Shown here one piece after another: positions 12,843 to 53,400 of a stretch of 64,000 nucleotides of DNA. The DNA comes from Antedon mediterranea (lineage: Eukaryota; Echinodermata; Crinoidea; Comatulida; Antedonidae), in contig NC_092680.1 in assembly GCF_964355755.1 (NCBI RefSeq), positions 1,527,001 to 1,591,000 of the forward strand. Reading direction: 5' to 3'. The notes under the pieces are model-generated. The model saw only the letters and a list, made by a program, of their open reading frames with translations. It was not told the origin of the DNA and searched no databases. The first letter of the stretch is position 1. The number at the start of each line of letters is the position of its first letter. Made by a program: the position numbers and the translations under genes.

Positions 12843-15800
12843 CTGGTGGGCCTTGGAGTCGAGCTCTTTTTACTGAAAAAAAAAAATAATGAAATTAATA
12901 ATTATATTCTTATAAATTGATAAAAAAAGTAATCATGTAATATTATGTGACAATAAATTGCATTTGAATAAAGCTCTACCTACACTATCAAACTTTATGT
13001 GACAAAACAATGTGATGTGCCCATATATGGATATGATGTCATATCATTACTATATTTGGGCATATCACTACCATATTTGGGCATATCACTACCATATTTG
13101 GCCACACTTTTTTTGTAAAACTAGTTTGATAGTGTAGACAGAGCTTTAGATTGTTTTATTGATTGTGATATATGATTTATATACGGTACTGCACTTTTCA
13201 ATTCACAACATCTGATTGGTAATAGCCTAGTACAATACTTTAAACTATCCCCTATAACTGAGGTATACAGTAACTATAGTGTTTTTTGTCTGAATTCAAT
13301 CGATCTACTGTAGGACTATGTTGCTCGATCTAGGACTATGTTGCTCGATCTAGGACTATGTTGCTCGATCTAGGACTATGTTGCTCGATCTAGGACTATG
13401 TTGCTCGATCTAGGACTATGTTGCTCGATCTAGGACTATGTTGCTCGATCTAGGACTATGTTGCTCAATCTAGGACTATGTTGCTCGATCTAGGACTATG
13501 TTGCTCGATCTAGGACCATGTTGCTCGATCTAGGACCATGTTGCTCGATCTAGGACCATGTTGCTCGATCTAGGACCATGTTGCTCGATCTAGGACCATG
13601 TTGCCCGATCTAGGACCATGTTGCCCGATCTAGGACTATGTTGCTCGATCTAGGACTATGTTGCCCGATCTAGGACTATGTTGCTCGATCTAGGACTATG
13701 TTGCTCGATCTAGGACTATGTTGCTCGATCTAGGACTATGTTGCTCGATCTAGGACTATGTTGCCCGATCTAGGACTATGTTGCCCGATCTAGGACTATG
13801 TTGCTCGATCTAGGACTATGTTGCTCGATCTAGGACTATGTTGCTCGATCTAGGACTATGTTGCTCGATCTAGGACTATGATGCTCGATCTAGGACTATG
13901 TTGCCCGATCTAGGACTATGTTGCCCGATCTAGGACTATGTTGCTCGATCTAGGACTATGTTGCTCGATCTAGGACTATGTTGCTCGATCTAGGACTATG
14001 TTGCTCGATCTAGGACTATGTTGCTCGATCTAGGACTATGTGGTAATGTGTAATTTTGTTAGCCTCTACTTTGTTACGGCTAACTCTACGGCAGTGAAAG
14101 GCCGACAGAATGGGATAAAGGAACGAAAAAAATTAAATTAAAGTAGTAAAAGGTGCAGAGGACAGGTGATACATTTATCACTAGTGCTGCACTCATTATC
14201 TGCCACTAAAGACAAGCTTAAAAGTTAATCAAAAGGATATCAAAGGTTTGCCTTCAATAATGTATTCTTAATGCATATATTAGCAATGGTGGATAAACTT
14301 TAAAATCTGAATATAGATTAGAGAGAAAGTAGGTAAGAATGGTCACATGACACGCAATTAACATAACATTGAATAACACATGAAATCAGCATAGGCAAAC
14401 GCAATGAATTCTTAATTACAATCAAACTAAAAAATTCATGAAGATTTTAAATGTGCTGTAGTTTGACGTCTGTCTGAAAGTATGGCAGCAATTTCTTTAT
14501 GAATAAATGTTGCGTTAAGCGTTTACTAACTGTAATAGAGCTATCAAAGAATATTCTTAGGTAGGGTGTAATTTCAAATAGCGCCACTAAGAGTGTATTA
14601 ATATAATATGTATGAGAAAGTTAATGAAAGGCTAGATCTTTAACTCTGAGTGAATAATAACATTGTTTTGTAAAAAAATGTTTAAATGCATGACATCAAT
14701 ATTCAAAGTTATTCTATTAAATTCAGTGTATAATTATACTTAATAGTTTCCAAAGGCAAAATATATTACAAATAATTCATGAGCAGATTCTTAGTTTTGA
14801 CCAAATCCAGTGGAAATGTAATTTCTTATTGTGTTGGATGGAAGAATGGAAGAAAATGTATGAGAATTATGATGGTGGGTCCAGAGTGGAAGCTATTTAC
14901 AGATGAAGAGAAGCGCTGAAGATGGCAGAAAGATGCCATGAAAGACAAGCAGACTACCTGATTGTAGGTTTATAGTTTGGTTGCGGCAATTGTTAAACTA
15001 TTCAAGGCACATTTTAATTATTCCATATGCAAACATTAAGAATTGGCTAGACTGAACCAGTTAGTCGGGCAACATTGAAGACTGGACCTGGACACATCAC
15101 CATCCTATGCAATGCATTGTTACCTAGCAATAAACATCGAAATTAAAAAACAGACTGGATTGATACTGTAGGCCAGGATTATACAGCAAGAACAACAATA
15201 TTTGAATGTTTATGATGTAAGAGACTACGAGCTGGGATTACTTTGAAGATACACTACAATATGACAAGGACTTGTAACACAGGTGTTGTACAAAATATGG
15301 TTAATTAAGCCAGAAAACCACCATATTTTTGTTCACAGTCAACTATTAATCTGCACACTCATGTTTTTTTTATTAGCAATTAAACTAAAATGATACCAAG
15401 TATAAACAATTACTTTACCTCATACTAAAAACAGCTTGTATGTGGAAACAATAGCAACAAATATCCCCGAAGGACGTACAAGTCTCCTGAGAGAGAAGTT
15501 GTTATAATGGATATTTCAAAGTGCTCTAGCGTTTTATGTTCATCATGGTATACTGTATAATACTCTATATATATTGGAGCAATCCTTTTTTTTTATCTAG
15601 ATACAGACGGCCATGATGAGGATGGAAAGATATTGCCTTTCACTTCCTGGTTTTATTTATTTATTTATTCAACTTCTCACTAAAGATCTTTGATTGGACC
15701 AAAAGGTGGTAAAGACCTCTAAAATGGTCCAGTCCCAATCGCATAATGAGCCCAGTTATGAACAGTGGCTGTGTGTGTGTACTACTTAGTTCTTTAAAGT

Positions 15801-21800: not shown

Positions 21801-24800
21801 ATACATTTCGTGACCGTATTGTCTGTCCTCCCCAACATGCCATACACCACCTTTTATAAATTACCCCAACTAACAACACATCTTTGAATTATCAGCTATG
21901 TGTTATATTTCTACATTGTTTACTTCCACATTGTAATATTAAATGATGCCAGCCAGCAGCGAGTAATGGCCCACGGAGAGTTTTATGACTCGCATTCATG
22001 ACTAGCGCAACAAACGTGTCAAACATAAAAATGAAGAAATTCACAGTCAACTGTATTATGTGCCCAAGAACCTTTGATTGCATCGATGATTGCGGTCGAT
22101 TCGACAACAATACGCAAAGTAATCTATTTCAAGATGATGATTATGAATATTCAAACATGAATTTCATACAATAAATAGATAGCAAATATAGTATACACAT
22201 ATTTAATGTTTATGAGTGATTGGTGAGAATATAGAATATATGTAAATTTTCGTTTTATTGAATAAAAACCCTTGAATTATATATCATGAGTTGAAAAATT
22301 GAATGCTCTATTTAACGAGACTCCACTAGTCAAAAATCAGAGAAGGGAAAATTCTGGATTTTCTAGAATGTCTCTAGATAAACTGTGTATTTGAATGGCA
22401 TGCATAAACTATGCAGTATAGTACTTGTGTTTTCTGAACCAAGGGAGATTTTACTTTTTTTAGTAAAGTTTAATCTTAAAAAATAAGTATCTTTAAAATC
22501 TTTCTTTTATTTAAATTGCAACAAACAAATTAGCTTTTTCTCGTGTAAGGGTTGTTAAGCACATTAAGCCCACCCGTTTGTTCACCAAAGACCACAACTG
22601 TACTATGACATCATAATATAATATTAAACATCACAAACTGTTACAAACTTCTATGTTAAATCATTGGTGAATGTTGAATATTCGATAATTCTCAAGACAC
22701 TTTAGGAAATTACATTAAAGATTGAATAATCTTTAAATTAATTAAGACATTTTTTTATAATCACTTACCATAGAAATCATTGATGTAGAGAACCCATCCA
22801 TCCTATGATTGTATAATAGGATATATATTGAGATAATTGCCATGAGCAGAAGGGTATGATGACATCAGAGGAAAGGGTAATTGGGAATATGACATACATT
22901 GAGTACTATTAGTTGGAAGTATAGCTAAAATCACTGACATAAAATGTTTGTAATGATATTACACAAACAAGGCAGTTTTGTAACACTTAGCTCTGTCTAC
23001 ACCATCAAACTAGTTGATGTGTGTGATGTGCCCAAATATGGTAGTGATATTCCCAAATATGGTATTGATGACATCATCATTTCCATATATGGGCACATCA
23101 CTTTTCGTTTTCTGTATAAACTGGAGTAATAATAATAATACAGTACAGTCTGCCATTAACTACAGTACACACAGATACCAAATGTTTTCTTGAAGGCATG
23201 GCATTAACAGCATGTTAATATTCAAATATTGAAATTAGTCTCATCTAAATTCTGTTTTTAAGTGTTTAGTGCAATGACCTTGGACTGTAATAAACTATGA
23301 TTGAAGTTCAATTCATTATATTACCTGGAATATCTAAGGAAAACTAGGTGGAATGGAATACATTAGAAGGTAGTGTATCCTGTAGACATCAAATTCTTAC
23401 TTCTGGGGAGTTTGCAGTATTATGGGCCTGGGGCGCATTCAATTATTATCAGAAAAGCCAAAATACATAAAACCAATACTTTAACAAAAATATATATTAT
23501 TTATTTCCATATTTTATGAGGGTGGCCTATCTAGTCCCAGAGAAGGAACTGATCATCAAGTTCCCTTGATAAAACCATAGAGAAATTAGTGAATGTCTTT
23601 ATGATAAAATATAACAACAATTAAATAAAAACATATAAAATATTAATAGAATCATTAAAAAATGGAAGATGGATAAAAAGAGAAAAAATTCTAGAAAAAG
23701 TATACTTCATTTTGAAGACCACTATCGCAACCTCTCTGGACACTGTGGGTTGGTTCTAATCAAGGCCGTAGCGAGAGATTAAAACCAGATGAGGCAAAGA
23801 TGCTTTAACTATAATTATTAATATAAATATTACAATCTGTGCAGGGAAATTGGGGTGGCCCTGCAAATGAGTGTTCTGTAACTAGTAGTATCAGTATGTT
23901 TGAATCGTATCAGTATACTGTTTTGTAGTTATTAATTAATGGTGATCATAATTTTCATTGATGGTGACTGTTGTTTCAGCAAACATCTGTGTTTATTTCT
24001 TTTTCCTTTCAAGGTCAAATTATCTTCTCCAATTTCAATTTCATTGTGTTTCGGTCATTAAACTTTCATAACTTTTTTTTACACATTCAAAATCTATCAA
24101 TTTATTATGATGGTATCCTTTGAGTGTTTTTTAACTATGATGATGTCACTTAATTAAGGATTTTAATGTAGAATGGTAAAAATAGTTTGAAAAAAAGAGT
24201 GCCCAAATATGGTAGTGATATGCTTAAATATGGTAGTGATATGACATCATCCATATATGGGGACATCACATTATTTTGTCACATAAAGTTTGATAGTGTT
24301 GGTAGAGCTTTATAGAAGACTAATATAACATTGCTAACAGTAGAAAGAGTTGTTGAGAACAAGTTGTAGTGCATTTTGTTTGAGAGTTGATGAGATGCTA
24401 TAAAAAAAGAACCTTGTACTGAGCGATATTAGTTTTTAATGACAATAAAAAAAGTTTAATGACTATCAACATTAATTGTCAGGAGGCAGTTGTTAGCGAC
24501 TTTTGGTAATGAATGAAAAGAAAGTTCCTTGATCAACACACTGTGACAAACAATATTAGATTTTTATGGCAATAAAGAGTTTAATAAAGCACCTGTCATA
24601 TACACTATAGTATCTTTCAAGCTTAGTTGAAGACATAAATTCTATTAAAGAAACAATGGGGAAAAAACCTATACAACTACAATATGAAGTTTTAAAAAAG
24701 ATATGGTCAGATTCGGTATCATCACTGGTATTGTAATCACTCCGAGGAAATGACGATACTGTTAAATAAAAAAATAAAATGGTACCTGCATTGTATTTAA

Positions 24801-28877: not shown

Positions 28878-29977
28878 TTAGGATGACGCGCAAGGCGACG
28901 TAACCAATCTAATAATACCAGACGCATTTAGCTGTTTTAAAACCGTAAATTCCGCTGGCATGCGGTGACCGTTTTGAAAAGATGCGCTTCCGTAATAATG
29001 GTACTTGACGGGTTTCCCGATGGCTGTTTGATTGAAAGGGTAAAATCCATACAGTGACACCTTGCTACACATATTCCCAGCAAGAGAAAACAAGTAAAGG
29101 CCAGATGACGGTGATGATGTAATGTTCCATCTCCTAAAAAAACAAACGAAGAACAACTGAAAACAAAACGTGTTAACTGCTCACATTTCCCCTGGTATTA
29201 ACGAAAAAATAGGCTAGGTTCAATTGGCTATTCATTTCGTTGCTCATGATTTTGAAATTGTATCTGAGGCAAAAAGCTACCGTACAAAGAGTCGGTTACA
29301 TGAAGAAAATAGGTAGGCTACGAAATTCTTTATTCACCCAAGATCAGCATTAATAAAATTATCATATGTTAGATATATGTTTAGTTATACATTTTAATTT
29401 AAAAATAGTTTGTGAAAAAAAAACCCGTTCTTTTTTCTTCTTTAAATATTATAGTCTATTTTAATTGAAATTACCTTTTAACCGCTCTGCTTAGTAAGCT
29501 ACTTGGTCGAGCTAACACAATGTTGGGCTTAAACTTCTGCAGAGCATTGACAGTACCCATCTTAGGATATCTACCGCTTGCTTTTGTCACCCATATAATA
29601 GTAGAATTATTTAAATTGTTCAGATAACGAGACGTCGTTCGGTAACAACTATCATTTTTATTTTGTGAGCACCTGCCGTAAATTCTTCCCGCGTCACTGT
29701 TTATTGTTATTAAGGTCGTTTTTCTTCCAACATCTTTCTCGAAACCTTCCAGAGTGGCGCCATATTTGAACGAAACACGTGATCGTGCGCATCAATTTCC
29801 AAGCCGCAATTACTCCCGTGTAGGATTCCGGAGTTTCCGAGGACAGCGCACGTGTCCGCGGGTTTTATCCACGGTTCCCCATTGGCCTGAGCTGTTTGGG
29901 TATATGTTTGATTTTGTATCAGCTCGTTAGGATAGACACGGAGTAATCTATATGGTGAGAAACTCTTTAAACGATTT
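28878..29977 (-). CDS. ST8Sia-like alpha-2,8-sialyltransferase, catalytic part, with frameshift
   Basis: Members of this family are Golgi type II enzymes that transfer sialic acid from CMP-Neu5Ac to sialylated glycans. The first exon (29475-29977) carries sialylmotif L ([10 protein letters not shown], then [18 protein letters not shown]) followed by [13 protein letters not shown]. The second exon (28878-29133) carries motif S ([20 protein letters not shown]), the VS motif H-x4-E (HRMPAEF) and a C-terminal Cys shortly before the stop. The exons join in phase as AAA AG|G AGA. The layout is closest to ST8Sia3-type enzymes. Just after motif L, at 29751-29754, the minus strand reads CTCT where the family pattern fits CT. 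The two extra bases shift the frame to an early stop at 29710-29712, so this is either a pseudogene or a sequence error. The exon may start at the CAG acceptor at 29978-29980, or the frame may run up to an ATG at 30081 with a possible membrane anchor ([18 protein letters not shown]). Further 5' exons were not found. A possible AATAAA lies at 28673-28678. Confidence 0.85.
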
Positions 29978-34590: not shown

Positions 34591-35710
34591 TTGACGTAAT
34601 AATGAATTACGTAATATGAAGCGCGTGTAAAATTGTTCGCTGTTCAATCATGATTTGTGGCGTAACGGGTAATTGTTTTTCGTTTATTTTGAAAAGAGAT
34701 ATTTAGAGGATTAAGTTAATTTAGGAAATACAAATAGTCTTTCCGATTTTAATTCATTCATTTTTTTGAATTTCGGAATACCATGATGACATAATATCCA
34801 TAGCAAAACAGAAGCTTAATCTAAGAAACCGTTGTACAGATAACAAAAAAGAATTGAGATTGCACAAAATAACAGACAGAATAGGCTAGGGATATAAAGT
34901 CAATGCAACAAGGCATTCCACTGTATGTGCATTCTTGACACATTAAGAACGTGGCGATTAATGGCCATGATCAAAGAATTGTTTAATGAAACGGAACTAG
35001 TATTATTCTAGCTATAAACAAGATGAGCAGTTAGTTTTTTTGTTTGCTTGCTGTTTGTACAGTCGACTCCGCTTAAGTCAAAAAATCGCAAAAGTCGAAT
35101 TTTTTATGAAAGTCTCAATTCATTCCTATACATTACTGTGTAATTATTATTTGTAAGTCAAATTTTTCGAAATTCGTCTAAGTCGACGTCTTTTTGGGGT
35201 CCGAATACACACATTTTTTGTGTGATTTATATCGTATAAGTCGAAGTTACAAATCACGTGGCAACAACACCACTGTATTTCAAAATATTGTTCTGTTGAA
35301 TTACCGTCATCATTTACCGCATGAATTGCATGCCTCGCTGGCTTGCACCTTGGCAACGACCGGGACTGAGCTAAGACAATGTTGAAAAATAGAGCTGTAC
35401 TGCAGCTAGGTCCTCATAAATTACTGATGAATCTCTGTCAACGAAGCTGCAGCAACTTGTGTATAAGAATGTTTTGAAGTCATTTATTTGATCAAATCAC
35501 ATTTCAATACAATAATGATAAAACAAAATTTATATTACAGTCACTGGTTTAATCTTGAAGATATCTCAGTTTAATCTAAAAAAACTGAATTTAAGATTCC
35601 TTTTACAACATAATCATTAAACACAGCAGGTCATAGTTCAAGGCGTACCAAACCCCAGTTCCAAACAGGACAGACTAACAAACCTTCAAGAGGTTAGTGT
35701 TATGTTTCCT

Positions 35711-36235
35711 GTGTTTACCAATTCTGGCTCTATAACATAATTACAGAAGGAAACAGATTCGCTGTAGAGCACCAGGATCCAGATTGTGTTTACCAATTCT
35801 GGCTCTACAACATAATTACAGAGAGAAACAGATTCGCTGTAGTGCACCAGGATCCAGATTGTGTTCACCAATTCTGGCTCTATAACGTAATTACAGAGGG
35901 AAACAGATTCGCTGTAGAGCACCAGGATCCAGATTGTGTTTACCAATTCTGGCTTTATAACATAATTACAGAGGGAAACAGATTCGCTGTAGAGCACCAG
36001 GATCCAGATTGTGTTCACCAATTCTGGCTCTATAACATAATTACAGAGGGAAACAGATTCGCTGTAGAGCACCAGGATCCAGATTGTGTTTACCAATTCT
36101 GGCTCTATAACATAATTACAGAGGGAAACAGATTCGCTGTAGAGCACCAGGATCCAGATTGTGTTCACCAATTCTGGCTCTATAACGTAATTACAGAGGG
36201 AAACAGATTCGCTGTAGAGCACCAGGATTCAGAGA
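35711..36235. repeat. 75-bp tandem array, 7 units, overlapping the DAP3 stop codon
   Basis: Units start GTGTTTACCAATTCTGGCTC at 35711, 35786, 35861, 35936, 36011, 36086 and 36161 with few differences. The last unit contains the final 14 codons and TAA of DAP3 (36191-36235). The array therefore appears to be an amplification of the DAP3 3' end. Long frames on both strands arise because 75 is divisible by 3. Confidence 0.97.
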
Positions 36236-39200
36236 TGTTAAAAATTTTAATTCTTGTTTTCCACTTTCGGTATGAACTAAAAAAAGAGAAGATATTACAA
36301 TAATAAGAGTATACATATTTGTTCAATTATATTAAACAATGTGTTTTTGAAAACAATATTGATACAATAATAATAAATTGGCCACTACAATTCAAAGTAC
36401 AATGATAGCAATAATAATTCTACTTTGTTTAGAACTAAATTGAATGTGATAACACTTCACTTTTATCTTTAAATAAACAACCTTGATGTTATTGCCCTGC
36501 AGGGTTATACCTGGTCATATACAGTAATAATACGGTATGCTTACATTTTTCATTTTGAATCCACTTTTTATCTAATAAATACTGCATCATACATTCAAAT
36601 TCCTTTTCAGAATAATTGTCTACTTTGATAGGAATAAATGGATCCATCATTTCAAAGCCCTGTAACATAAAAATGTACTATTGTAAAACAATCAGTAATA
36701 GTTATAGTGTGTGCTTATTTTTTATTCTTAATTTCTTATTGTTGTACCACTACCTTTTTTCCCTTTGCAAAACATTTCAAGAAGGTAGGCGAAGGAACCG
36801 CAGAGTCAAATCTCAAAATGTTGTTATTCTACTTACTTCTTGTTTTAACAAGTATAGGGGCTTATAATCGGCCTTCAACTCCCTGTAACTATTATGCTGG
36901 TCAACTGTTGTAATAATAGCACCATTTTTCTGAAGAAAATTATAAATATAATATTACATGAAGGAAATTTGCAGACTCCAATATGTTTCAGGAAGAAGAT
37001 AAAAAGGTCTCTTTTATTATCAGGTTCTAGGCACATTATACATGAGTACATGACTTGTCAACATTAAGATTAATATCATTTTATGACTATTAATCGACGT
37101 GGCATCCATTATATCTGTCTAAAGAAAGAAGGGTAGACCTTATTTGAAATGGAGGGATGAGCTTGTCAAACGGACCGGTACCACAGCATGGCCAAGATTT
37201 ACAAAAGATAGGAACAACTGGCACCAATTGGTGTCAGTTGTTCCTATTCCAGACGATATGGGCTGAAGAAATAATTTGTATAATTAAATATTCAAAAACA
37301 TTTATGCAATTTATTTTACCCAATTTGCTTTCAAAAACTTTCTGAAGTGCATTAACATCGTAAGTTCTCGAACAGGAATCTGAAAAAAAAAACCACAATT
37401 ATTTGCATTAATGTTTTTTTTTCTTTTATTTATATATATTTAAAAAATTTGTGACATTATCATGTTTTATTTTTTATTAGTTTTATTTAATCGACTGGTA
37501 ATGGATTTTTCAACAAATTTTCATACCATGTATCCTCCTGTTTTTCGGATATTTGTCATCTCTGCAAAAAGTCCATTTACCGCTTTTACTGCATATAACA
37601 TTTTGCAATTATTTGACAAGCTATTTAGTTTCAACTCTTTTAAAACAACACCAATGACATCAGTTGAATTCTTTGGTCGATTTATTCCCTAAAATATACC
37701 AAAAAAAACCCAAAAAATGTAGAATATTAAAATTAATTCATTATAATTTTAGTTAATACATTTTAACTAAAATAAAAGTTCTATTTTACCACACAATTTA
37801 TTTATTCATTTTCAGTTACATTTTGACACCGGGAAAACCGCTACTACCTAACTAGAAACAATGTTAATCTATTTACCTGTTCTACAACACTAATAAGAGG
37901 TTGACCAGACTCGGTTAGTTCACGCTTGCTCCATACATATTTTTGATGTGTTTTTAACTGTAAAAGATGCATGATATGATAACTAGAAATCAGTTAATTT
38001 AATTAGTAAAAACCTTTAATGACCAATATAAGAATATGAAAATGTTGAATGTAGGGGTGAGGAAAAGGACCGTTGTACTTGGACAATGGTCAAACTCTGT
38101 CATTGTTTTAATCTATTCTCGGTTTTTGTTTTTCATTAAATGAAAATTGATTACAGTTCTGATGATGAGAATAGATTTCACATAATTTTAAGATGGTCTG
38201 CATTTTTATTATAATGCCTTACTGTATGATATTGAATCTCACTTGTAAATTTGGTGGTATTATACATAAAACATATATATAAACAAATAAATACAAAAAG
38301 CCATATAAAATGAATACAAGATCAGGACAAGACTTACATTAGATAACATAGATTCATTTCTATATTTAAAATGTTTAAGCCATTCACTTGAAAATGCTGG
38401 TTGATCATACATTCCTTCATGTGATACACTATCAAGGAAATCCCATTTGTTGTTTACATTCCAGTTATTAGCTACCAACAAAATATGAATAAAGAAATAT
38501 AAGAACAAACTTAAGCTCTGTCTACACTATCAAAACTATGTGACAACAACATTTGATGTGCCCATATATGGACATGATAATACTGTATTACTAACATATT
38601 TGGGCATATCACTACCACATTTGGGCATATCACTACCATATTTGGGCACATCACACTAGTTTGATAGTGCAGACAGAACTTTACATAGTATTAATAAATA
38701 AATTATAATGAATTATAATATAGTGTAATATTATTCACATAAAATAGTTTTTCTTGATATTTTTTTACCACAAGGTGTCTTTTCTTTATTACTTAATAAA
38801 GAAATAAATTGATGTTTATATTGTATGAAAATTATCAATTATTTATTATGACATATACCTACCATTAGGAATGTGTACAATCAGCCATCCTTGATTTAAA
38901 CAATAATGCATAATATGCATCAAAGACAATGTTTTGCCACTTCCCCTGCTGCCATATAATACATATCGTACTGGGGCTTGGTTATAATCACTCTTCTTCA
39001 AATAATCTATCACTTCTAATGCTGGCCTTCTAATCATAATCTTGCCTTCTCCAAGAACTTCACTCTGATTTAAAAAAAAATTCATATGCAATAAAAAACA
39101 AGAAATGCCAATTACAGGATGAATTGATTAAATTTATCATTCTTATAACAAAATTTAATTGACGCTTAGGGAGAGGAGGAAATAAAGAGTTGTTTGTAAC

Positions 39201-40699
39201 AATGTTGACACTATGTGTCAGGATTGAACCCTGGACTTTGGGATTGGAAGGCAAGCATGTTAACCACCAAGCTACAACTCCACTACAAGATAAGATTAGA
39301 GTGCTAAATAACACTGGTTAAAATAGATTTGGTAAAACATACCACTGAAAGTCTTTTGTGAACAATATTATTTAATAAATATTTCATTTCTAAACTTTCC
39401 AGCAATAATACCACATGGTATATTTAAGTTTAACAATATATTAAATAACAATTAATATAAATAAAATGTAATTACCAAGGAGAACCATTTGTTGGAATAG
39501 CCCACATGGAATATTTTACTGATGTCCTCCTGTGGTATGTGATACAGCTGACTTTGATGTTGTAATCCTTGTTTTGCCTGCAATCAAACAAAATAGCAGT
39601 AATAAAAAAGGTAAAGAAAGGCGTGTGGCGCAGTGTGTTGGACGTTCGACTACTAATCGTGAGATCAAGGTTCGAATCCAACTCTCGCCGCATTGCTTGT
39701 ATCCTTAGGCAAGATACTTTACTCACGTTTGCCTCTCTCCACCCAGGTGTATAATTGGGAACCCGGTTAGATAAAGACACAACTTTGCGCTAATTACTAG
39801 CTGCATTATGGGAGTATGTTTTTCCATAGATGTTTGATCAGGAATGACTGGGTAATAATGTTCAGCGCTTAGAGGTTTCACAACATTAGGCGCTATATAA
39901 ATCCAGGATATTATTATTATTTTACTGTACAAGGCGGGTATAATTACACACATGTTTGAAATGGTATTGGTTAATCCTAGTTAGGGTATAGAGGAAAAGT
40001 TTCAACTACAATAATAAATAATTTAACTGTCTTGGATTCTAGTTCTTCTATGCTGTTATTGAAATGGCAATTCCAGGTAGGCATAAAAAACCCCAAAACA
40101 TTTTAAATACAGTATAATTTATAAACCAATTAATTTAAAATACAAATTAGATTTGTGCTGAATGTGTGACAAATTTGTGATCAATTACTACTTTACATAT
40201 CACTTCTTTTATATAATTTTATATTTTTTTCTTTTTCTGTCTCAAAATGTCATTTTTTTGTAATTGTAATGCAGTTGTCTATGTTTTATGCTTGGGACTA
40301 CAAAGACAAGCAACTTTGGCTTCTGTGTATCTTTCTCATAAACTATGTAAACTGTTGAATAAATGTTGTTATTATAATCATATATTTCTTATAAAGGTTA
40401 TACTGTAATAACTTTGAATAATGCAATACCTATAAACCATAATTAAATTATTAAAATAATAAACATACTGGGTCATTTTCAGAACTTTGAAATGACATCC
40501 ACCGGATTGATTGGCAGGTTACGCCCACATTCCAGTATCTGGAATTTATAGCCTGTAAAAAATAATCATAAAAACAGTACAGATAAGGGAAAAAAATAAT
40601 ATTTCAAATATGTTAAAATTACATTCATTACGAAGATGACATAAAAATGTATATGTATATTATTAATATTACCGTTGCAATTTTTAAGATAGCCCTCAT
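36191..40699 (-). CDS. DAP3: DAP3 / mitochondrial ribosomal protein mS29, complete
   Basis: DAP3 is the P-loop nucleotide-binding protein of the mitoribosomal small subunit and is also linked to apoptosis. The coding exons are 40673-40699, 40469-40552, 39476-39577, 38863-39064, 38338-38471, 37877-37957, 37527-37688, 37320-37379, 36837-36929, 36545-36659 and 36191-36276. All junctions are GT-AG and in phase, giving 381 codons (human DAP3 is 398). The N-terminus MRAILKIATAINSRYWNVGV suits a mitochondrial presequence. The Walker A motif GSRGSGKT is at residues 109-116, preceded by the family signature RRPALEVIDYLKK. Further matches are QKYVWSKRELTESGQPL, GINRPKNSTDVIGVVLKELK, GFEMMDPFIPIKVDNY and the C-terminal ELKFLTSLNPGALQRICFPL. 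The position equivalent to the Walker B Asp is Lys245 (MLYAVKAVNG). The last 14 codons and the stop lie inside a 75-bp tandem array. The exon at 40673-40742 has an acceptor upstream, so a 5' UTR exon exists, perhaps ending at a GTGCGT donor near 41036. Confidence 0.95.
38512..38683. mobile_element. MITE family M1, copy 4
   Basis: Both ends are present: AGCTCTGTCTACACTATCAA on the left and TTTGATAGTGCAGACAGAAC on the right, with TA on each side. It lies in a DAP3 intron, 41 bp from the exon at 38338-38471. Confidence 0.88.
39140..39298 (-). mobile_element. SINE family C-like copy with a conserved head
   Basis: The minus strand shows GTAGCTTGGTGGTTAACATG (A-box-like) and CAGGGTTCAATCCTGACAC (B-box-like), about 35 bases apart, like the head at 51283-51500. 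The body differs. It lies in the DAP3 intron between exons at 38863-39064 and 39476-39577. Confidence 0.72.
39617..39923 (+). mobile_element. tRNA-derived SINE, family B
   Basis: A tRNA-like head (39619-39690) has an A-box TGTGGCGCAGTGTGTTGG and a B-box AGGTTCGAATCC. It is followed by ATCCTTAGGCAAGATACTTT, a body with TAGCTGCATTATGGGAGTAT, and a 3' end GGCGCTATATAAATCCAGGA plus (ATT)n. It lies in a DAP3 intron, opposite to the gene. The CGCTATATAA-(ATT)n end resembles CR1/L2-type LINE tails (family knowledge). Confidence 0.88.
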
Positions 40700-42264: not shown

Positions 42265-45200
42265 ATGAAGACAGCAGCACTGTTGAGGAGAGTTACCTCA
42301 AGCCAAGCTGGTTATTTGCCACTGTTGACACTTTATACAAAGGTAACTGTAAAGTTTGGATCCTACTAGAACGCAAAGCTGTGCAAACGATTGTGATTGG
42401 TTAAAAACAGGGAGTTGTGAGCATCTTAAGAATGATGACTGGTTCTCTCTCTCTCGAAGTGCCATATCATGAGACTTTGGCGATCATGTTGTGCCACAAT
42501 TCTCTGTCTATTGCCATATTCAGCAACTCCACTTCTTTGGTATTCTCGCCTCTATTCCGAATCCATTCAGCTATGCTGGCCAACCAAGTGACTCTTTTCC
42601 TCCCCCTGCTCCTTCTTCCTTCTATTTTCCCCGTTAATGCCAAGTTCTCCAGACCTCCCTTCCTCAACACATGTCCCATGAATCTCATCTGTCTAATCCT
42701 AATACCCTTCAGTAGTTTCCTGCATACTCCAGCTCTTATCAATACATCTTCATTACTAACTCTATCTGTCCATGGAATTCTCATCATTCTCCTTAGAAAC
42801 CACATCTCACAGCTTTCCAATCTTTTTCTGAGGTCAGTTGTGATTGACCAGGCTTCACTTCCATACATCAGCACAGGATAGATGTAGCAGTTTAATACAC
42901 GCAACCTGGTTTCCATACTCATCGCAAAGTTCTTCAAGATATTCTCCATTTCTCCAAATGCGGATTTCGCAAGGACTATCCTTCTCTTTATCTCCGTTAC
43001 ACACCTGGCATCATCTGTTATTTTGCTCCCAAGATAGTTAAAAGAGGACACCTGCTGAATTAACTGGTCTCCTGCTTGAAGGTTACACGTTGGACTCTCA
43101 TTTTTTGGCACTACTAAACACTCTGTCTTACTACAATTTATAGACAGACCCATCTTTTCGCTCTCTACTACAACCACATCCAGCAACCTTTGGAGATCTT
43201 CAGCTGACTCTGCCAGTAGAACTGTGTCATCTGCATATCTGATGTTTGTAATATTTCTACCACAAATTCTCAAACCCTTCTCATTATCTAGCTCCCTCAA
43301 GATCAACTCGCTATAGTAGTTAAACAAGTCTGGTGACATTACACAGCCCTGTCTCACTCCTCTTCCAATACTTGTGTAGTCACTGCACTCCCCATCTACC
43401 CTCATGCATGCAGTCTGTTTCCAGTACAAATTTTGCAACAATCTAAGATCCTTTCCATGTAGGTCAAGCTTGCTAAGTTCTTGAAATAGCTGCTCATGCC
43501 TTACTTTGTCAAATGCCTTGGTGTAGTCTATGAAACACATGTATACATCTTTCTGCATCTCCACTGCCCTTTCAGTTATCATTCTTATCACAAAGATGGC
43601 ATTCCTGGTGCCTGAATCCTTTACAAAACCAAACTGCTCACTCCCAATCTCTGGTTTTAATCTGCTTCTTGCTCTCATAAGTAGTATCCTCAGAATGATC
43701 TTGGTGACATGACTCATGAGGCTGATTGTACGATGTTTTTCACATTCTACAGCACCTGGTTTCTTCGGAAGGGCAATAAAAATGGACTTACTCAAGTCCT
43801 CAGGGAAGCTTCCATCCTCGTATATCTTATTGATCACTTCAGTTAACTTTTCCACTCCATACTCTTCTAATGCCTCAATCATCTCGATGGCTACACCATC
43901 CGGTCCTGCCGCCTTATTCTTCCTCAACCTCTTGATTGCTGTTCGTACTTCTGCTTTCAAGATCTTTGGTCCTTCTTCTGAGTCAGGAAAGCTTGGCATT
44001 GCTTGTCTAACATCAAAAAACAGCTCCCCGATATACTCTGTCCATCTTTTCAAAATATCAGTCTTTTCAACAAGCATTGTTCCATCTTTTGCCTTAATGC
44101 ATCCAGAGTTTGAGCAGCCAGACTTCCTTCCAGTGATCTCATTAAGTCTCTGATAAATCTTGTGGTTGTTGTTCTCTAGTCCACTCTCAATCTCCTCACA
44201 CTGTGTGTTAAGCCACTTTTCTTTTGCCTCCCTGCACTTTTGCTTAATTTCTCTATCTAGATCTTTATATTCTTTACTTGATCTACTACTAATCTTCTGT
44301 CTATCCCTCATCATTGATAGTATCTCTTCCGACACCCATTTGTTCTTCCTTCTTCTGTCTTTCTTAGGTAAGGATTCTTTGGCTGTCTCAACAAGGATGT
44401 CTCTCATTGCATCCCACGTAATCTCTTCACCTTCATCTACAAGGATGTCAAACTTATTCCTCACTTGAATGGAATATTCCAAACGGATCTCCGGACTGTT
44501 TAGCTGCTCAAAGTCTAATTTCTGTACATTTTTGGCTTTCTTCACCTTTTTTAACTTTGATTGAAGTGTGCAAACCACTGGAATGTGGTCACTTCCACAA
44601 TCTGCCCCTGGATATGTTTTTGCATGAGTCACTGCCCTTTTCCACCTACTGTTTACTGCAATGTAGTCAATCTGATTCCTCGTCACATCACCAGGGCTCT
44701 TCCATGTGTATATTCGTCTGGGATGCTCTTTAAACCATGTATTTGTTATGGTCATATCCTTAGCTTTACACCAGTTCACCCATCTGTCGCCACGCGCATT
44801 TCTTTCACCCATCCCATGCTCTCCAACTATGTTTCCATCTTGTTCATGGCCAACCTTTGCATTCAGATCACCCATGATGAAATTTATCTCATCTGATTTG
44901 CATTGGGATTTGGCCTGGTCTAAGGTCGCATAAAAGTTATCTATCTCTTCATCTGTGCTGTCAGCTGTAGGTGCATAAACCACTATGATAGAGATATTGA
45001 AGGGTTGTCCCTGCAGTTTGACCAGCATAACTCTTTCACTCACAGCCCAATAGCCCAGCATACATTTAGCCATATCACCATCCAAAAGCAACCCTACACC
45101 TTTTTCATGTTTGTCTCCTCCAGCGTAAATCATCTTGTAATCATCAATCATAAATTCACCATTATTTGTCCAATGAGTTTCATTTATCCCTAATATATTG

Positions 45201-46645
45201 ATATTGAGTCTTATCATTTCCTGCTTAACATTTTCAAGTTTGCCATCTTGATACAAGGTCCTCACATTCCACGTTCCTAGTCTGATTGTACTTCTATTGC
45301 GGACAGTAGCTTGATGACGGTCGAGCTCCACCTGTCGCACATGAGACACCCTACCGGGCGAGGAGCCTCCTTCATACGATGGATGTACCCCCTTTACGCC
45401 GTTAGCTTTCATTCTTGAATTGTGACACTTCATAATTGTTCTTGGAAAAATGATAGTGAAGTGGTTTCCCGTTGCCTTCTTCACCGCAGTCTATCAGCCA
45501 TAAATGGGATCACCATCTTGCCTGACAATGTGTGCTGAGGTCTGCCGTTGTCCTAGAAATGGATCTTCCGCCGAGACACCCATACTGCATCACTGCTGCC
45601 TAATGCAGGGCATGGCTAGGCCTATTTAGAGGCGGCCTAAACTCGCCTCTACTGCAGAACGTATTTGGGGATATGCCGGTTTTATGACCCTGTTGGTGCC
45701 ACCCAACAGCGCCCGACCCCCTGCTGTTACTGCAGTCCTCCTTTAGTCGCCTCTTACGACACGCGGAGCTTTCGTGGGGGGTATTCTTTTATCAGACCCC
45801 TCCCCCAGGCCAGATGACTGGTTACTGTCCAAAATTAGCTGTAGATATCAATCAATAACTGTATTTAAATTTCTATTTTATTTTTAGGAAGACTGTAGTC
45901 TGTGTGATACTGCTATGGAAGTAGTTAACAAGCATAAGCACAGGGTAAAGCATTATGTTGATAATTATAGATAATAAATTTATATTAATTAAATATATTA
46001 CCAAACTTTAAATAGTTTTAGTGCCTTATTTTCTGACCATCTCTCGTCTGATCATCTCACGTCTGATCATTATCTGAATCAAGCATCCAAGTGGAATACA
46101 ATCTGTTTGCTGATGCAAAACACATATACTGTATAGAACACATTCAATTTTAAAAACTTTTGAATTAAACCCAAATAAATTATTTTAAGTAAACTAATTA
46201 GCGAGCTTGCCTCAAATAATATGCATCATTTCAACACATAAATTTTGCCATATCATTAAATTTTATGTTGCAGAATTATGTGTATACCGCAGGTATATCC
46301 TTTATGCAAGATTAACACTTGACTTGAGTCCAATTTGGTGAAAATGGTGAGATTATACCCCATGAGATTGTATTAACCAATTGATTTACAGAATTCTTGT
46401 GTCTGAATTTTTGAGTAGGATTATACCCCAGTCATATAATGGTAATAAAAAATTATTTTTCATACTTTCAGTTTCAATTTGAAGAAGTCGATATTGAGGA
46501 AAAAGGCAACGAGATGTGGTTTGACAAATACCGCTATGATATCCCAGTATTCCACCTCAATGGGCGGTTCCTAATGAAACACAGAGCAGACGAAGAACAT
46601 TTCCTGAAGTCACTAGACTTGTGTGAGCAAGATGAACCTAGCTGA
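42265..46645 (+). CDS. C5orf63-type glutaredoxin-like protein, complete
   Basis: This is a small thioredoxin-fold protein of the C5orf63/YDR286C glutaredoxin-like family. The family's biochemical role is poorly defined. The coding exons are 42265-42342, 45888-45944 and 46472-46645, all phase 0, giving 102 codons. The first exon reads MKTAALLRRVTSSQAGYLPL then LTLYTK, a short basic N-terminus that could target mitochondria followed by the first beta strand. The second gives EDCSLCDTAMEVVNKHKHR, with the CxxC pair at Cys29 and Cys32. The third has FEEVDIEEKGNEMWFDKYRY and DIPVFHLNGRFLMKH, including the cis-Pro region. A different phase of exon 1 is also open for 61 codons but does not join to the other exons. 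An acceptor at 42201-42203 implies an upstream noncoding exon. Intron 1 is 3.5 kb only because a LINE sits in it; without that it would be 166 bp. The gene is divergent from DAP3 and convergent with the ACSBG-type gene. Confidence 0.92.
42445..45812 (-). mobile_element. Full-length RTE-like LINE with 11-bp target-site duplication
   Basis: The element is bounded by perfect copies of GATGACTGGTT at 42434-42444 and 45813-45823. On its own strand it starts with a GC-richer 5' UTR of about 330 bp, beginning TGGCCTGGGGGAGGGG and containing GTGTCGTAAGAGGCGACTAA. The single ORF follows, then a 3' UTR of only 22 bp ending in (GA)n. A very short 3' UTR with a simple-repeat tail is typical of the RTE group. 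It lies antisense in intron 1 of the glutaredoxin-like gene. Confidence 0.93.
42467..45484 (-). CDS. LINE ORF: APE endonuclease plus reverse transcriptase (RTE/BovB-like)
   Basis: This uninterrupted 1005-codon ORF belongs to a non-LTR retrotransposon. The N-terminal third is an apurinic-type endonuclease: RLGTWNVRTLYQDGK, NINILGINETHW, IIVVYAPT, MGDLNAKVG, RNQIDYIAVNSRWKR and GADCGSDHIPVV. The central part is the reverse transcriptase: NKAAGPDGVAIEMI, MCFIDYTKAFDKVRH, GRGVRQGCVMSPDLFN and the catalytic IRYADDTVLLAES. The C-terminal part has YPVLMYGSEAW, LRRMMRIPWTDRVSN, MRFMGHVLRKG and GRKRVTWLASI. These match the order and wording of the RTE/BovB group known from bovine BovB and the CFDP2 endonuclease domain. 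No RNase H or gag-like ORF is seen. The intact frame suggests a young, possibly competent copy. Open frames on the other strand here are shadows. Confidence 0.96.
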   Translation of the reverse strand: MKKATGNHFTIIFPRTIMKCHNSRMKANGVKGVHPSYEGGSSPGRVSHVRQVELDRHQATVRNRSTIRLGTWNVRTLYQDGKLENVKQEMIRLNINILGINETHWTNNGEFMIDDYKMIYAGGDKHEKGVGLLLDGDMAKCMLGYWAVSERVMLVKLQGQPFNISIIVVYAPTADSTDEEIDNFYATLDQAKSQCKSDEINFIMGDLNAKVGHEQDGNIVGEHGMGERNARGDRWVNWCKAKDMTITNTWFKEHPRRIYTWKSPGDVTRNQIDYIAVNSRWKRAVTHAKTYPGADCGSDHIPVVCTLQSKLKKVKKAKNVQKLDFEQLNSPEIRLEYSIQVRNKFDILVDEGEEITWDAMRDILVETAKESLPKKDRRRKNKWVSEEILSMMRDRQKISSRSSKEYKDLDREIKQKCREAKEKWLNTQCEEIESGLENNNHKIYQRLNEITGRKSGCSNSGCIKAKDGTMLVEKTDILKRWTEYIGELFFDVRQAMPSFPDSEEGPKILKAEVRTAIKRLRKNKAAGPDGVAIEMIEALEEYGVEKLTEVINKIYEDGSFPEDLSKSIFIALPKKPGAVECEKHRTISLMSHVTKIILRILLMRARSRLKPEIGSEQFGFVKDSGTRNAIFVIRMITERAVEMQKDVYMCFIDYTKAFDKVRHEQLFQELSKLDLHGKDLRLLQNLYWKQTACMRVDGECSDYTSIGRGVRQGCVMSPDLFNYYSELILRELDNEKGLRICGRNITNIRYADDTVLLAESAEDLQRLLDVVVVESEKMGLSINCSKTECLVVPKNESPTCNLQAGDQLIQQVSSFNYLGSKITDDARCVTEIKRRIVLAKSAFGEMENILKNFAMSMETRLRVLNCYIYPVLMYGSEAWSITTDLRKRLESCEMWFLRRMMRIPWTDRVSNEDVLIRAGVCRKLLKGIRIRQMRFMGHVLRKGGLENLALTGKIEGRRSRGRKRVTWLASIAEWIRNRGENTKEVELLNMAIDRELWHNMIAKVS

Positions 46646-47024: not shown

Positions 47025-49359
47025 CTGGTAGATCATGGACTGTATGACTGGCAACAACCAATTGTAATTCAAATTTCCTTTAATAAAAAAAGTCAATGCT
47101 GTATATGTTTCTAAGATTTTGTTTTATTCACATCACTACTGTAATACACATTGTTTGCATAGCACGATATACAGTGAGTTTACTTACAGAAGGTGAACGC
47201 TTACTTGCATTGATATATGCTACAACAAAATATTTAAACCGCTTTAATAATAATTACAAAATACAAAGTGAGTTAGGTGGTGCGTTCCTTATCAGCCCTT
47301 GTCATGCAGAAAATCTATTTCAGTAACAAATTCACCCTTGTTTCTCGTGTAACTTTCCGACTATAATTTACATATGCTTTTGATATTAAGTTGTAATAAG
47401 AGATTGTATGGTGTAATATTTAAACTATAATTTTGTGGTACAAAAAAGAACATGTTTTTACTAATTTACTTATTATGCAAGGTACACAGCAATTGTTAAT
47501 AAACGAACTCCAACACATTCTTCACTCTCACAACAAAATGGTAACACAAACTGAAGGCATGTTGCCCTACTTTTGAAATGTAATCTGCAGAATCTAGTAA
47601 ACGTACTGTAGCATGTGTAGCTCACAAACAATAATTCTTAGACACAATACTACAATATTTATGGTTATATTATTTACATTGTTATTTTACCTAAATTATA
47701 ACGATACATTAAGATACTATACTGTAGATTGTATTTTTGCATTAAGCTCTGTCTACACTATCAAACTAGTTTGACAAAAGAAGTGTGATGTACCCAAATA
47801 TGGTAGTGATCTGACCAAATACGGTAGTGATCTGACCAAATACGGTAGTGATATAACATCGTCATATCCATATATAGGAACTCTGACAATTTAATTGACT
47901 TTATAGACAAGAGCATGTGAACATACAGTATTCAAGTTTATTGGTTTGATCATGGAGCAAATTTGTGATTGATGAGGTGGATTGTTTAGTTTTTCTTGCC
48001 AGAGGCAGAACTTTGTATCATAGGAGTGTACTCCCCCTAGCCTCAGTAGTAATATGGTGATGGTAGGTACGGTACGGTATGTTTGACAAACTTAAACTAA
48101 TGCAATTCTTGAGAGGTTCTAACATAGAACAAATATTGTTGCTAAGGTTTTAAATGGCAACATGATAGCTTCATATTCACATATTGACTAGCTGATTTGA
48201 TATAGCGACTTTAAAAATATATGTTTATTACATTTTTTTGTTTTACATAAAGGTGAGTACATTACAGGAATGGTTTTCTATTTTAGCACATTATTTAGAT
48301 TAGGAGAGGATTATTGATTTTAAACTTGGTTTAAATTGCACACATTTTTTCATTTGTATAGATTGTTTTTTTGTCGGGAGAAATTACCCTTGCACACTAC
48401 ATACATTAAATGCCAGAAATTAGTAAAATGAGGTAGAATCTGATCTTTCTTAATGAATAAATTTATGAATTTTTATTTTGGCTCGAAACTCATTACAATT
48501 AACTTAATTACAAGGACACATTATACAGATATTGAGCCGACCCAAGAAGGTCTATTTTCAGAAAGTTGGAAATTGTATAATTTGAAATATTGTGAATTTA
48601 TTTACAAAACAAACACGTTGGAACTAACTGTGCAGTAACTATCACAACAATTTTTAACACAAATATCCAACAAATTTGAAGTTAACATCATTTTACAATA
48701 GACATGGCGTAGTAACAGTACTGAAAACAAATAAATGACATAACACCATTTTTGTAGACAAATTGAATAAAAGGAAGGTATTGTCACCTTTGTTAACAAA
48801 CGTACTTTTGACAGATATAAACTACTGTATAAGCACAGCTACTGTTCCACAACACACTGTATACACTAAACACAGGATAAATCTCCACGAGGCAAAACAT
48901 GAATGCAGTTTTATGTGATCACAGACTGGTGAATTGAATTTAACAAAGTAGTAAGTTACAGAATCTTATGTGAATTGGTTTTTAGAATGTTTATGAGATG
49001 ACTATTGTTATTTTTGATCCCTTTCAAACTATATACAAAATTTAACATTATAATTTACTTCTTTTGTTTAATTTTTGTAAATTTTTAAATAAATCACAAA
49101 AATCAACTCATTCAATAATAAACATTATTTACACAAAAAAAAATGCATAAACTACATAAGCATGACTATAGACTTTTTATGCTGTTTGCAATGTTTCAGT
49201 ATTAAACTGTGCAAATATTTTACAGTACCAGATCAAATATGTGTGCCATATCTTTTTTTTAAATCCAACTGTCTGGGACACTTACTTTATATTATTATGT
49301 TATTGTCAAAGACAATGGCAGGTCAACTGAAATAGGTCAAAGATGTACTTTTTGTATTT
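47025..49359. other. Intergenic region between convergent genes
   Basis: Except for MITE copy 5, this is AT-rich sequence. It should contain the 3' ends of the glutaredoxin-like and perhaps ACSBG-type transcripts. No further exon is recognised. Confidence 0.4.
47743..47892. mobile_element. MITE family M1, copy 5 (right end degraded)
   Basis: The left end AGCTCTGTCTACACTATCAA is intact, and the internal CAAATACGGTAGTGATCTGA word is duplicated. The right end is lost near 47890. It lies between the glutaredoxin-like and ACSBG-type genes. Confidence 0.82.
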
Positions 49360-50422: not shown

Positions 50423-53400
50423 TCAATTTCCAGGTGTAGCGGCATCTTGATACATTCCTTCAATTTCGTCAGTGTACATCTTCAACACAACTGGTCTTTT
50501 TAACTTCAGTGTTGGACCTTCAAAATAAAAAAACAAATATATAATATATAATTATACTGATTTTCGGAATAGATAATTATAAAGTCTATTGCTTCAAATT
50601 AATCAACCAAATTATTCTGATAGCAAAATTTTCTATATGCCGATAAAAACATGGAAAACACTTAAATCTGTTACATGTCTTCAATAAGGACCTTTCCTTT
50701 AGAAATAATAAAATAATATTACTTATTTGTATTTACTTGTACAGTAACTAATTGGAACACCTAATTGGAACTTTCTTTCATATGACCAGTTTTGAAACAA
50801 ATGTAAACGGAGTCAATTAGAAAAAAAAAATGAATAAATAAATGGCTGAATTCTGTAACCATGTGATGGATTACATCACCTGATAGATAGCAATCACTTA
50901 TGTCAAGCCTAAAGCTCTGTCTACTCTGTTTGGGCACATCACATTTTTTTGTTTGATAGTGTAGTCAGAGCTCAAGAGAAAAACTAACCTAATTCCCCTC
51001 CTGGTACTGAGAAGTCCTTCTGGATAAATATGTATTTCTGAATTTTTTGTGCTCTAGACTGTGAATGTTGGTTGTTATATATCTCAATGGCAGCTTGTAT
51101 TGAGTTCTTGATCTTTTCATCTGCAACAGCTTCTTCAACTGTCTTTGCTTTACTTCCAAGCTGTTTGCACACAATCAGAGCCTCAGGGCTAAGTTCGTTT
51201 GAGGGTTCCAAAGTGTTTTCATCTATTTTAACCTGCATTTAGAATTGTGATTATAAGACATATTTAATGAGGGTGATCCATCCAGCAATTGCTGATCATT
51301 AGGGACCCCCAGAGGTTCACAAGACAGCATACACAAGATGCTCTACATAAACAAAGTCTTATTACAAGTCTTTGGGAGTAGAGTTTTGGGAGTAATTTTG
51401 TCCTTAGAATAAATCCTGACATGTGACGGGACATGATCCCAGGACTCTTGGAGTGGTAGCCAAGCATCATAACCACCAAGCCACAACTCAACTCAATTAC
51501 TTTTACAGTAGCAGGAGCTGAGGATAACACATGCTGTATTTAGATTAGTAAATGAAAACAATCTGATAAAGCTTGATTCTCTCTAGAATGCAACATGCAA
51601 GAATGTACACCCAACACCAGTGAGTAATTTGTATTTGTATCATACAAAATGTTACTTGCAATTTTCTAAATTTGTTGACAATAAATCATAAATCGACTAG
51701 TGAGAACCAAGGTGTTTCTGATTGGAGCTCATTTTATGATCAATGGGTTTTAATGTCTTACAAACAATAGAAGTTCAATTCCACTTTATTCTATTCCATG
51801 TAAGAGTTTACAGTTAACTGATTGGCATCATGTCCCACACCCACAATTTACAAAGAGACCCTAATACATTATTATATAAAGCATTGTAACCAACCTTTAG
51901 AGTGACAAGTAAACTTAAGAACTTCTTCTGATCACCTATCAGCATGCAATTGCCAATCATCTGAGCCTCCTTCTTAACAACATCTTCAATTGGGACTGGG
52001 GCAACATTCTCTCCTCCGGCAGTAATGATAAGCTCTAGATACAGACACAAAATATTATGCATTATTATTATCTGGAAGTTCAATGCCTTTAGAACGATCA
52101 CGATGATAATAAAGTATACCAGTATTATAATTATTTTTAACTTCGCTGCTAGAATAGAATAGAACCACATGTTAGCCTGGCACAGTTGAACATGTATCAA
52201 TACTTTATGTTAACCTATGCCTGGCACAGTTGACCATGTGTCAATACTTTATGTTAACCTATGCCTGGCACAGTTGACCATGTGTCAATACTTTATGTTA
52301 ACCTATGCCTGGCACAGTTGACCATGTGTCAATACTTTATGTTAACCTATGCCTGGCACAGTTGAACATGTATCAATACTTTATGTTAACCTATGCCTGG
52401 CACAGTTGACCATGTGTCAATACTTTATGTTAACCTATGCCTGGCACAGTTGACCATGTGTCAATACTTTATGTTAACCTATGCCTGGCACAGTTGACCA
52501 TGTGTCGATACTTTATGTTAACCTATGCCTGGCACAGTTGACCATGTGTCAATACTTTATGTTAACCTATGCCTGGCACAGTTGACCATGTGTCAATACT
52601 TTATGTTAACCTATGCCTGGCACAGTTGACCATGTATCAATACTTATGTTAACCTATGCCTGGCACAGTTGACCATGTGTCAATACTTTGATTAAGTGGT
52701 CTGAAACCAAGCAAGAAGTAAGAATAATTATTAAGGTATAAAATAGTAGTAAAATTATTGTGGTAAAAATATTTTCTTCTTTTCTTCTTTCTTTTTTAGT
52801 TTTGAGAAAGCAAATTTGTAGTATATAATACAGTATCAGAATAAAGTCATAGTATATGGAGTTATTAACCGCATGCTACAATACCATATTGATAAAATAA
52901 GCAGATACAAGTGTTAGGCTCTGCTTACCTTTAATTCTGCCAGTAATATACAAGAAACCATCTTTATCTTCTTTGCCAATATCGCCTGAATGTAAGTAAC
53001 CTTCTTCATCAAAACATTCCTTGGTTTTACCTTCCATGTTGAGGTAACCCATAAAAACATGGCGACCATGCAAGCAAATCTATTATTAATGCATCCATAG
53101 AAAGATGGTTAGAAATTTGGACTGATTAGCTGTTGGCTTATGTGTCGCACTATCCCTAAAATCTGGACGACTCTATGTATAGTACTGTGTGTATAGTGCA
53201 CATTCCAAAGAAACTGGCATTCCACTGTGTGAAGAATGGCATATTACGTGGTGCCTGATTGAGTATACTGGGCGCAGGCGTAAATTACTTTACTGTATTC
53301 TATTAAGAATCCATAGAAAGATGTTTAGAAATTTGGACCTGACTGGCTGTTGGCTTGTGTGTCGCACTATCCTTAAAATCTGGACGACTCTATGTACAGT

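Follow-up and report, generated by a model that had tools for sequence, protein, structure and literature searches.

We found that the last codons and the stop codon of a DAP3/mS29 gene in the crinoid Antedon mediterranea lie within one end of a seven-unit tandem array of 75-bp period. The match to mS29, the array itself, the codons that it shares with the gene, the stop codon in each unit and the in-frame period are seen directly in the window, i.e., the whole stretch of 64,000 bp analysed here. The array is very probably the outcome of a local duplication that spanned the stop codon, grew to seven copies and left the protein unaltered, the distal units being near-neutral passengers in the 3' UTR.

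The DAP3 gene and the age of its C-terminus

The gene occupies positions 36191–40699 on the minus strand and was predicted, by reading the sequence, to comprise 11 coding exons for a protein of 381 aa. The edges of the exons were set by eye (exons 1–4: 40673–40699, 40469–40552, 39476–39577 and 38863–39064; exons 5–8: 38338–38471, 37877–37957, 37527–37688 and 37320–37379; exons 9–11: 36837–36929, 36545–36659 and 36191–36276), and GT-AG borders are present in 10 of the 10 introns. The predicted protein matched the Pfam profile of DAP3 (PF10236) with 249.2 bits over profile positions 2–310 of 311, and a phmmer search of the 381 aa against mS29 chains yielded up to 345.7 bits over residues 31–379, the best-scoring chains being, we take it, mammalian. 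With this near end-to-end match to the family, C-terminus included, the protein belongs to DAP3/mS29. We also searched the whole genome (354 Mb in 18 contigs, 11 of 22–41 Mb and seven of at most 567 kb) with PF10236, and six exon-sized matches were obtained at E values up to 10, two of which pass the cut-off. Five of the six are located within the DAP3 gene; the sixth, a weak match on a different contig, scored 18 bits and falls below the cut-off. The short terminal exon of DAP3 is absent among the six.

The terminal coding exon (36191–36276, minus strand) follows a ttttttag acceptor in phase 1, encodes HTESGKQELKFLTSLNPGALQRICFPL past the split codon and ends with TAA at 36193–36191, and the DAP3 protein terminates in LNPGALQRICFPL. 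The earlier note on this DNA had taken this exon to be the last of DAP3 and to match the end of known DAP3 proteins, and our searches agree. When the C-terminal 27 aa alone were compared with the Protein Data Bank (E up to 10), nine distinct sequences were retrieved (best E 1.2e-4, weakest 0.043), and all nine are named mS29, 28S protein S29 or DAP3. The terminal exon shares 15 of 25 residues with the mS29 end in the printed alignment, and among the residues encoded within the array six of the 11 compared are identical. These 11 comparable residues have a BLOSUM62 score of 36 against the mS29 end, a value reached in 2 of 200,000 shuffles of window residues. As the end of DAP3 is conserved with the mS29 chains, the gene end is old and is not a creation of the repeat. 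The conservation bears on the idea that a repeat element landed on the gene, or was captured by it, and that residues encoded by the repeat took the place of the C-terminus. Minisatellites are indeed frequent in this genome; nevertheless, the residues encoded by the array align to the mS29 C-terminus, the array was found at a single place in the genome, and the conserved DAP3 end argues strongly against any such replacement, which we regard as scarcely credible.

Structure of the array

Tandem Repeats Finder reported a repeat at 35710–36233 (period 75, 7.0 copies, 95% match, 0% indels), phasing of the units placed the array at 35710–36234 on the minus strand, and its head-to-tail units fall in the range of about 10–100 bp by which minisatellites are recognized. 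Unit 7 is the one on the exon side, adjoining and overlapping the exon (36160–36234, minus strand, in the unit phase chosen for the analysis). Homology between exon and array ends at 36233, leaving 43 nt (36191–36233, minus strand; 13 codons, TAA and 1 nt) common to the coding sequence and the array unit. Each 75-bp unit is made up of 42 bp for codons and stop, 31 bp past the stop and 2 bp before. The remainder of the array (35710–36190, minus strand), predicted to be 3' UTR, contains six further in-frame copies of LDPGALQRICFPL and TAA, which units 3–6 encode as such, units 1 and 2 ending in FLL and FSL, respectively. The overlap of the array with the C-terminal codons and stop of DAP3, as the earlier note had it, is therefore confirmed, with seven gap-free 75-bp units that include the last 43 nt of the coding sequence. 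Its dimensions needed correction: the shared part had been given as 45 bases and 15 codons instead of 43 nt and 13 codons; the exon-side unit is where it had been placed, yet with bounds of 36160–36234 in our phase, not 36161–36235; and the array proper extends over 35710–36234, not as far as 36276.

The near-identical coding stretch reported for the other six units is also there, the shared 43 nt of unit 7 differing from units 1–6 at 2, 3, 1, 1, 1 and 1 bases, respectively. All six distal units carry GAT (Asp) at a site where both DAP3 and the mS29 chains have Asn; beyond this common GAT, the distal units show two more amino-acid changes, one each in units 1 and 2, and one silent change. The mean identity is 96.6% among units 1–6, and that of unit 7 with these six is 94.2%; the last base of the unit also sets unit 7 apart from all of them. 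Of the post-stop variants of unit 7, unit 3 has two and unit 5 one, and neither is found in the neighbouring unit 6; the unit closest to unit 7 is unit 3 (2 differences, versus 4 for unit 6). Unit likeness and physical position are not clearly related (r = 0.19 between physical and sequence distances, a value matched or surpassed by 1136 of 5040 orderings). As this order is unlike that of simple outward growth, block duplication or exchange probably occurred.

The post-stop variants that unit 7 shares with units 3 and 5, together with a coding part that differs from each of units 3–6 at only 1 of 43 bases, could be taken to mean that conversion or unequal exchange keeps homogenising coding and distal units, the array continually rewriting the C-terminus of DAP3. 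Nevertheless, the Asn/Asp site and the last base of the unit separate unit 7 from all six others, the variants common to units 3, 5 and 7 are equally explained as retained ancestral states, and a young array alone can give high identity. Such rewriting therefore appears unlikely to us. The parsimonious reading of the unit sequences would be that the state of unit 7 is ancestral, unit 3 having retained it and unit 5 partly so. As the gene retains Asn, like mS29, and all other units have Asp, that site shows no sign of the gene and the distal units being homogenised, and the earlier proposal that the units homogenise together with real codons did not find support. Exchange into unit 7 may have occurred outside the Asn codon.

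Reading frame and effect on the protein

As 75 bp correspond to 25 codons, each unit repeats the C-terminus and the stop in frame, and TAA occupies one fixed place, in frame, in seven of the seven units. Reading on in frame past the DAP3 stop, nearly the same C-terminus and stop are met six more times, the next in-frame stop being 25 codons downstream. With a stop in frame in every unit, only the unit adjacent to the exon should be translated; judged by these stop codons, the array would not be one in which several units are joined in a single protein. For the same reason, gain or loss of units should be silent and alter nothing except the post-stop sequence. The codons of DAP3 could be changed only by exchange or conversion reaching into 36191–36233, and conversion from the present units could give an Asn to Asp, a Pro to Leu or a Pro to Ser replacement and nothing else. 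Loss of the stop would append 25 residues, after which the protein would end nearly as before. An effect of the array on the DAP3 protein is thus unlikely by construction, and we saw no indication of an altered protein; the suggestion that array turnover alters the C-terminus is mostly contradicted by the in-frame stop in each unit. An altered 3' UTR, the other outcome suggested in the earlier note, is plausible.

The predicted 3' UTR and RNA folding

We scanned positions 34700–36276 for ten polyadenylation hexamers, and found neither AATAAA nor ATTAAA from the DAP3 stop through to where the array ends. A weak variant, TATAAA, lies inside unit 4 (35959, +232), ATTAAA motifs start at 35575 (+616) and 35553 (+638), and AATAAA, the candidate polyadenylation signal, is located at 35483–35488, 703 nt past the stop (all on the minus strand). 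Since the first AATAAA or ATTAAA is thus found beyond the array, we infer that all units are probably transcribed as 3' UTR, placing the distal units, as far as these motifs can tell, within that of DAP3.

Folded as RNA, the 525-nt array surpassed every one of 100 shuffles (z = -2.74), and units 5 and 6 taken as a dimer reached z = -1.79 (11 of 200 shuffles as good). Two units folded singly gave z values of -0.85 and -0.63, with 41 and 54 of 200 shuffles as good, respectively, and a hairpin over the stop was predicted in the centroid structures of both. A whole array that beats all of its shuffles would count against a passenger, which need not fold. Together with the dimer, the hairpin, the identical place of the stop in all seven units and the period of 25 codons, it forms the case for an array kept by selection, either as spare in-frame C-termini and stops against readthrough or stop loss, or as a structured, copy-number-dependent element of the 3' UTR setting expression. 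Nevertheless, a period is divisible by 3 with a chance of one in three, the single units are not clearly better folded than their shuffles, a weak hairpin would, when repeated, yield the value of the whole array, and the distal units have undergone amino-acid changes. We do not regard the folding scores as evidence of function, and hold maintenance by selection to be very unlikely. One may speculate, albeit with great doubt, that the array is a reservoir of spare C-termini that buffers stop loss, provides a template from which the last 13 codons are converted and sets the structure of the 3' UTR by its length; were this true, the end of a mitoribosomal protein and the regulation of its mRNA would depend on one unstable DNA element.

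Other open frames

An antisense ORF of 201 aa (35698–36303, plus strand) is open through the whole array. It matched the Pfam family VPR/VPX with 56.5 bits (E 2.9e-15), one stretch (131–191) passing alone. Two units scored 20.7 bits against the same family (E 4.4e-4; family cut-off 25.5), and a single antisense unit of 25 aa matched no Pfam family up to E 10. We find nothing in this ORF to suggest a viral gene, and take the VPR/VPX match for a weak, accidental resemblance that adds up over the copies. Three other weak Pfam matches of the ORF, including ASTN1_2_fn3 just over the cut-off, were discarded, as no stretch passes alone, and so was another minus-strand frame (35686–36228), open but separated from the DAP3 exon by stops.

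Three further ORFs on the minus strand of the window deserve mention. Upstream of DAP3, an uninterrupted frame of 1007 aa (42467–45490) resembles, by eye, a LINE endonuclease/reverse transcriptase. The ORF at 51814–52209 matches the C-terminal domain of AMP-binding enzymes (29.5 bits), the 5' end of its frame overlapping a 44-bp array at 52175–52689, and that at 29710–30114 matches sialyltransferase family 29 (54.8 bits).

Arrays in the window and the genome

Counting arrays of period at least 20, at least three copies and at least 100 bp, we found 10 in the 64-kb window (4336 of 64,000 bases, 6.8%) and 15 in 11 stretches sampled elsewhere, one per large contig at the same fixed position in each (6033 of 110,000 bases, 5.5%). 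A single stretch, L004, supplies 3243 of these 6033 bases, and 2790 of 100,000 are left without it. As arrays cover 5.5–6.8% of the sequence examined, some gene ends within arrays are to be expected; if arrays ignored genes, about 3–7% of stop codons would lie inside one, a figure that selection will lower. For humans, passages of one study put the minisatellites of a reference set at 0.52% of the genome and have its VNTRs overlapping 3512 exons, both under criteria that differ from ours (PMC8096271). Repeat density (units of 1–50 bp) is described in part of another paper as lowest in the coding regions of Daphnia, fly and bee (PMC3152781).

The genome search found the DAP3 array at one place; very common words were skipped in this search, and its absence elsewhere is thus unproven. 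When the window and 110 kb sampled from the genome were compared with the unit, a stretch of 18 bp at E 0.82 was the sole further match. A dispersed or transposon-borne minisatellite would have copies of its unit elsewhere, and with a single place in the genome search and no second match but these 18 bp in the sequence compared, we rejected a dispersed repeat family. Four short arrays in the window (13040–13101, 23023–23069, 38586–38654 and 47794–47852), one of which sits in a DAP3 intron, are built of 21-bp units that resemble each other, around CACTACCATATTTGGG on one strand or the other.

Origin of the array

Found at a single genomic place, the array is best explained by a local duplication that ran across the stop codon. 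The earlier view that it amplifies the gene's own 3' end is thus well supported, the codons being old, as their presence in mS29 of other animals attests. We infer that the gene end came first, and that a 75-bp tandem duplication across the DAP3 stop codon would have arisen in this lineage, the duplicated unit later expanding to seven copies. The upstream copy would have kept codons and stop intact, rendering the duplication silent for the protein; being silent, it would have met little selection. The extra copies would then be passengers of the 3' UTR, subject to near-neutral minisatellite evolution. A stop-spanning tandem duplication leaves the protein untouched, so that coding ends can give rise to minisatellites at small cost; by this rule, repeat-rich genomes should show an excess of arrays at stop codons relative to internal exons. 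The DAP3 array is likely an instructive yet ordinary minisatellite, and likely represents an ordinary kind of repeat in an unusual position, not a new mechanism.

Comparison with known systems

Translated repeat arrays in terminal exons are exemplified by the VNTR of CEL and the zinc fingers of PRDM9. The DAP3 array resembles both in lying in the last exon and extending to where the coding sequence ends; unlike them, with a stop in each unit, one of its units alone should be translated. Tandem stop codons, for which we rely on parts of the papers on yeasts (PMC1088959) and ciliates (PMC6879139), are comparable in that extra in-frame stops follow the DAP3 stop. They differ in lying within a few codons of the first stop, whereas the next stop in DAP3 is 25 codons on. 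Passages of the open-access literature held no clear precedent for minisatellites over stop codons or for repeats in DAP3, which does not imply absence from print, and the C-terminal tail of mS29 is not treated in the passages of PMC11106087 available to us. A further comparison is offered by human DAT1 (SLC6A3), whose 3' UTR, according to a portion of PMC1325255, contains a 40-bp minisatellite VNTR. As in DAT1, the minisatellite of DAP3 resides in the last exon, in what is here a predicted 3' UTR, and leaves the protein unchanged; unlike in DAT1, as far as that portion describes it, the first unit of the DAP3 array takes in the gene's final 13 codons together with its stop.
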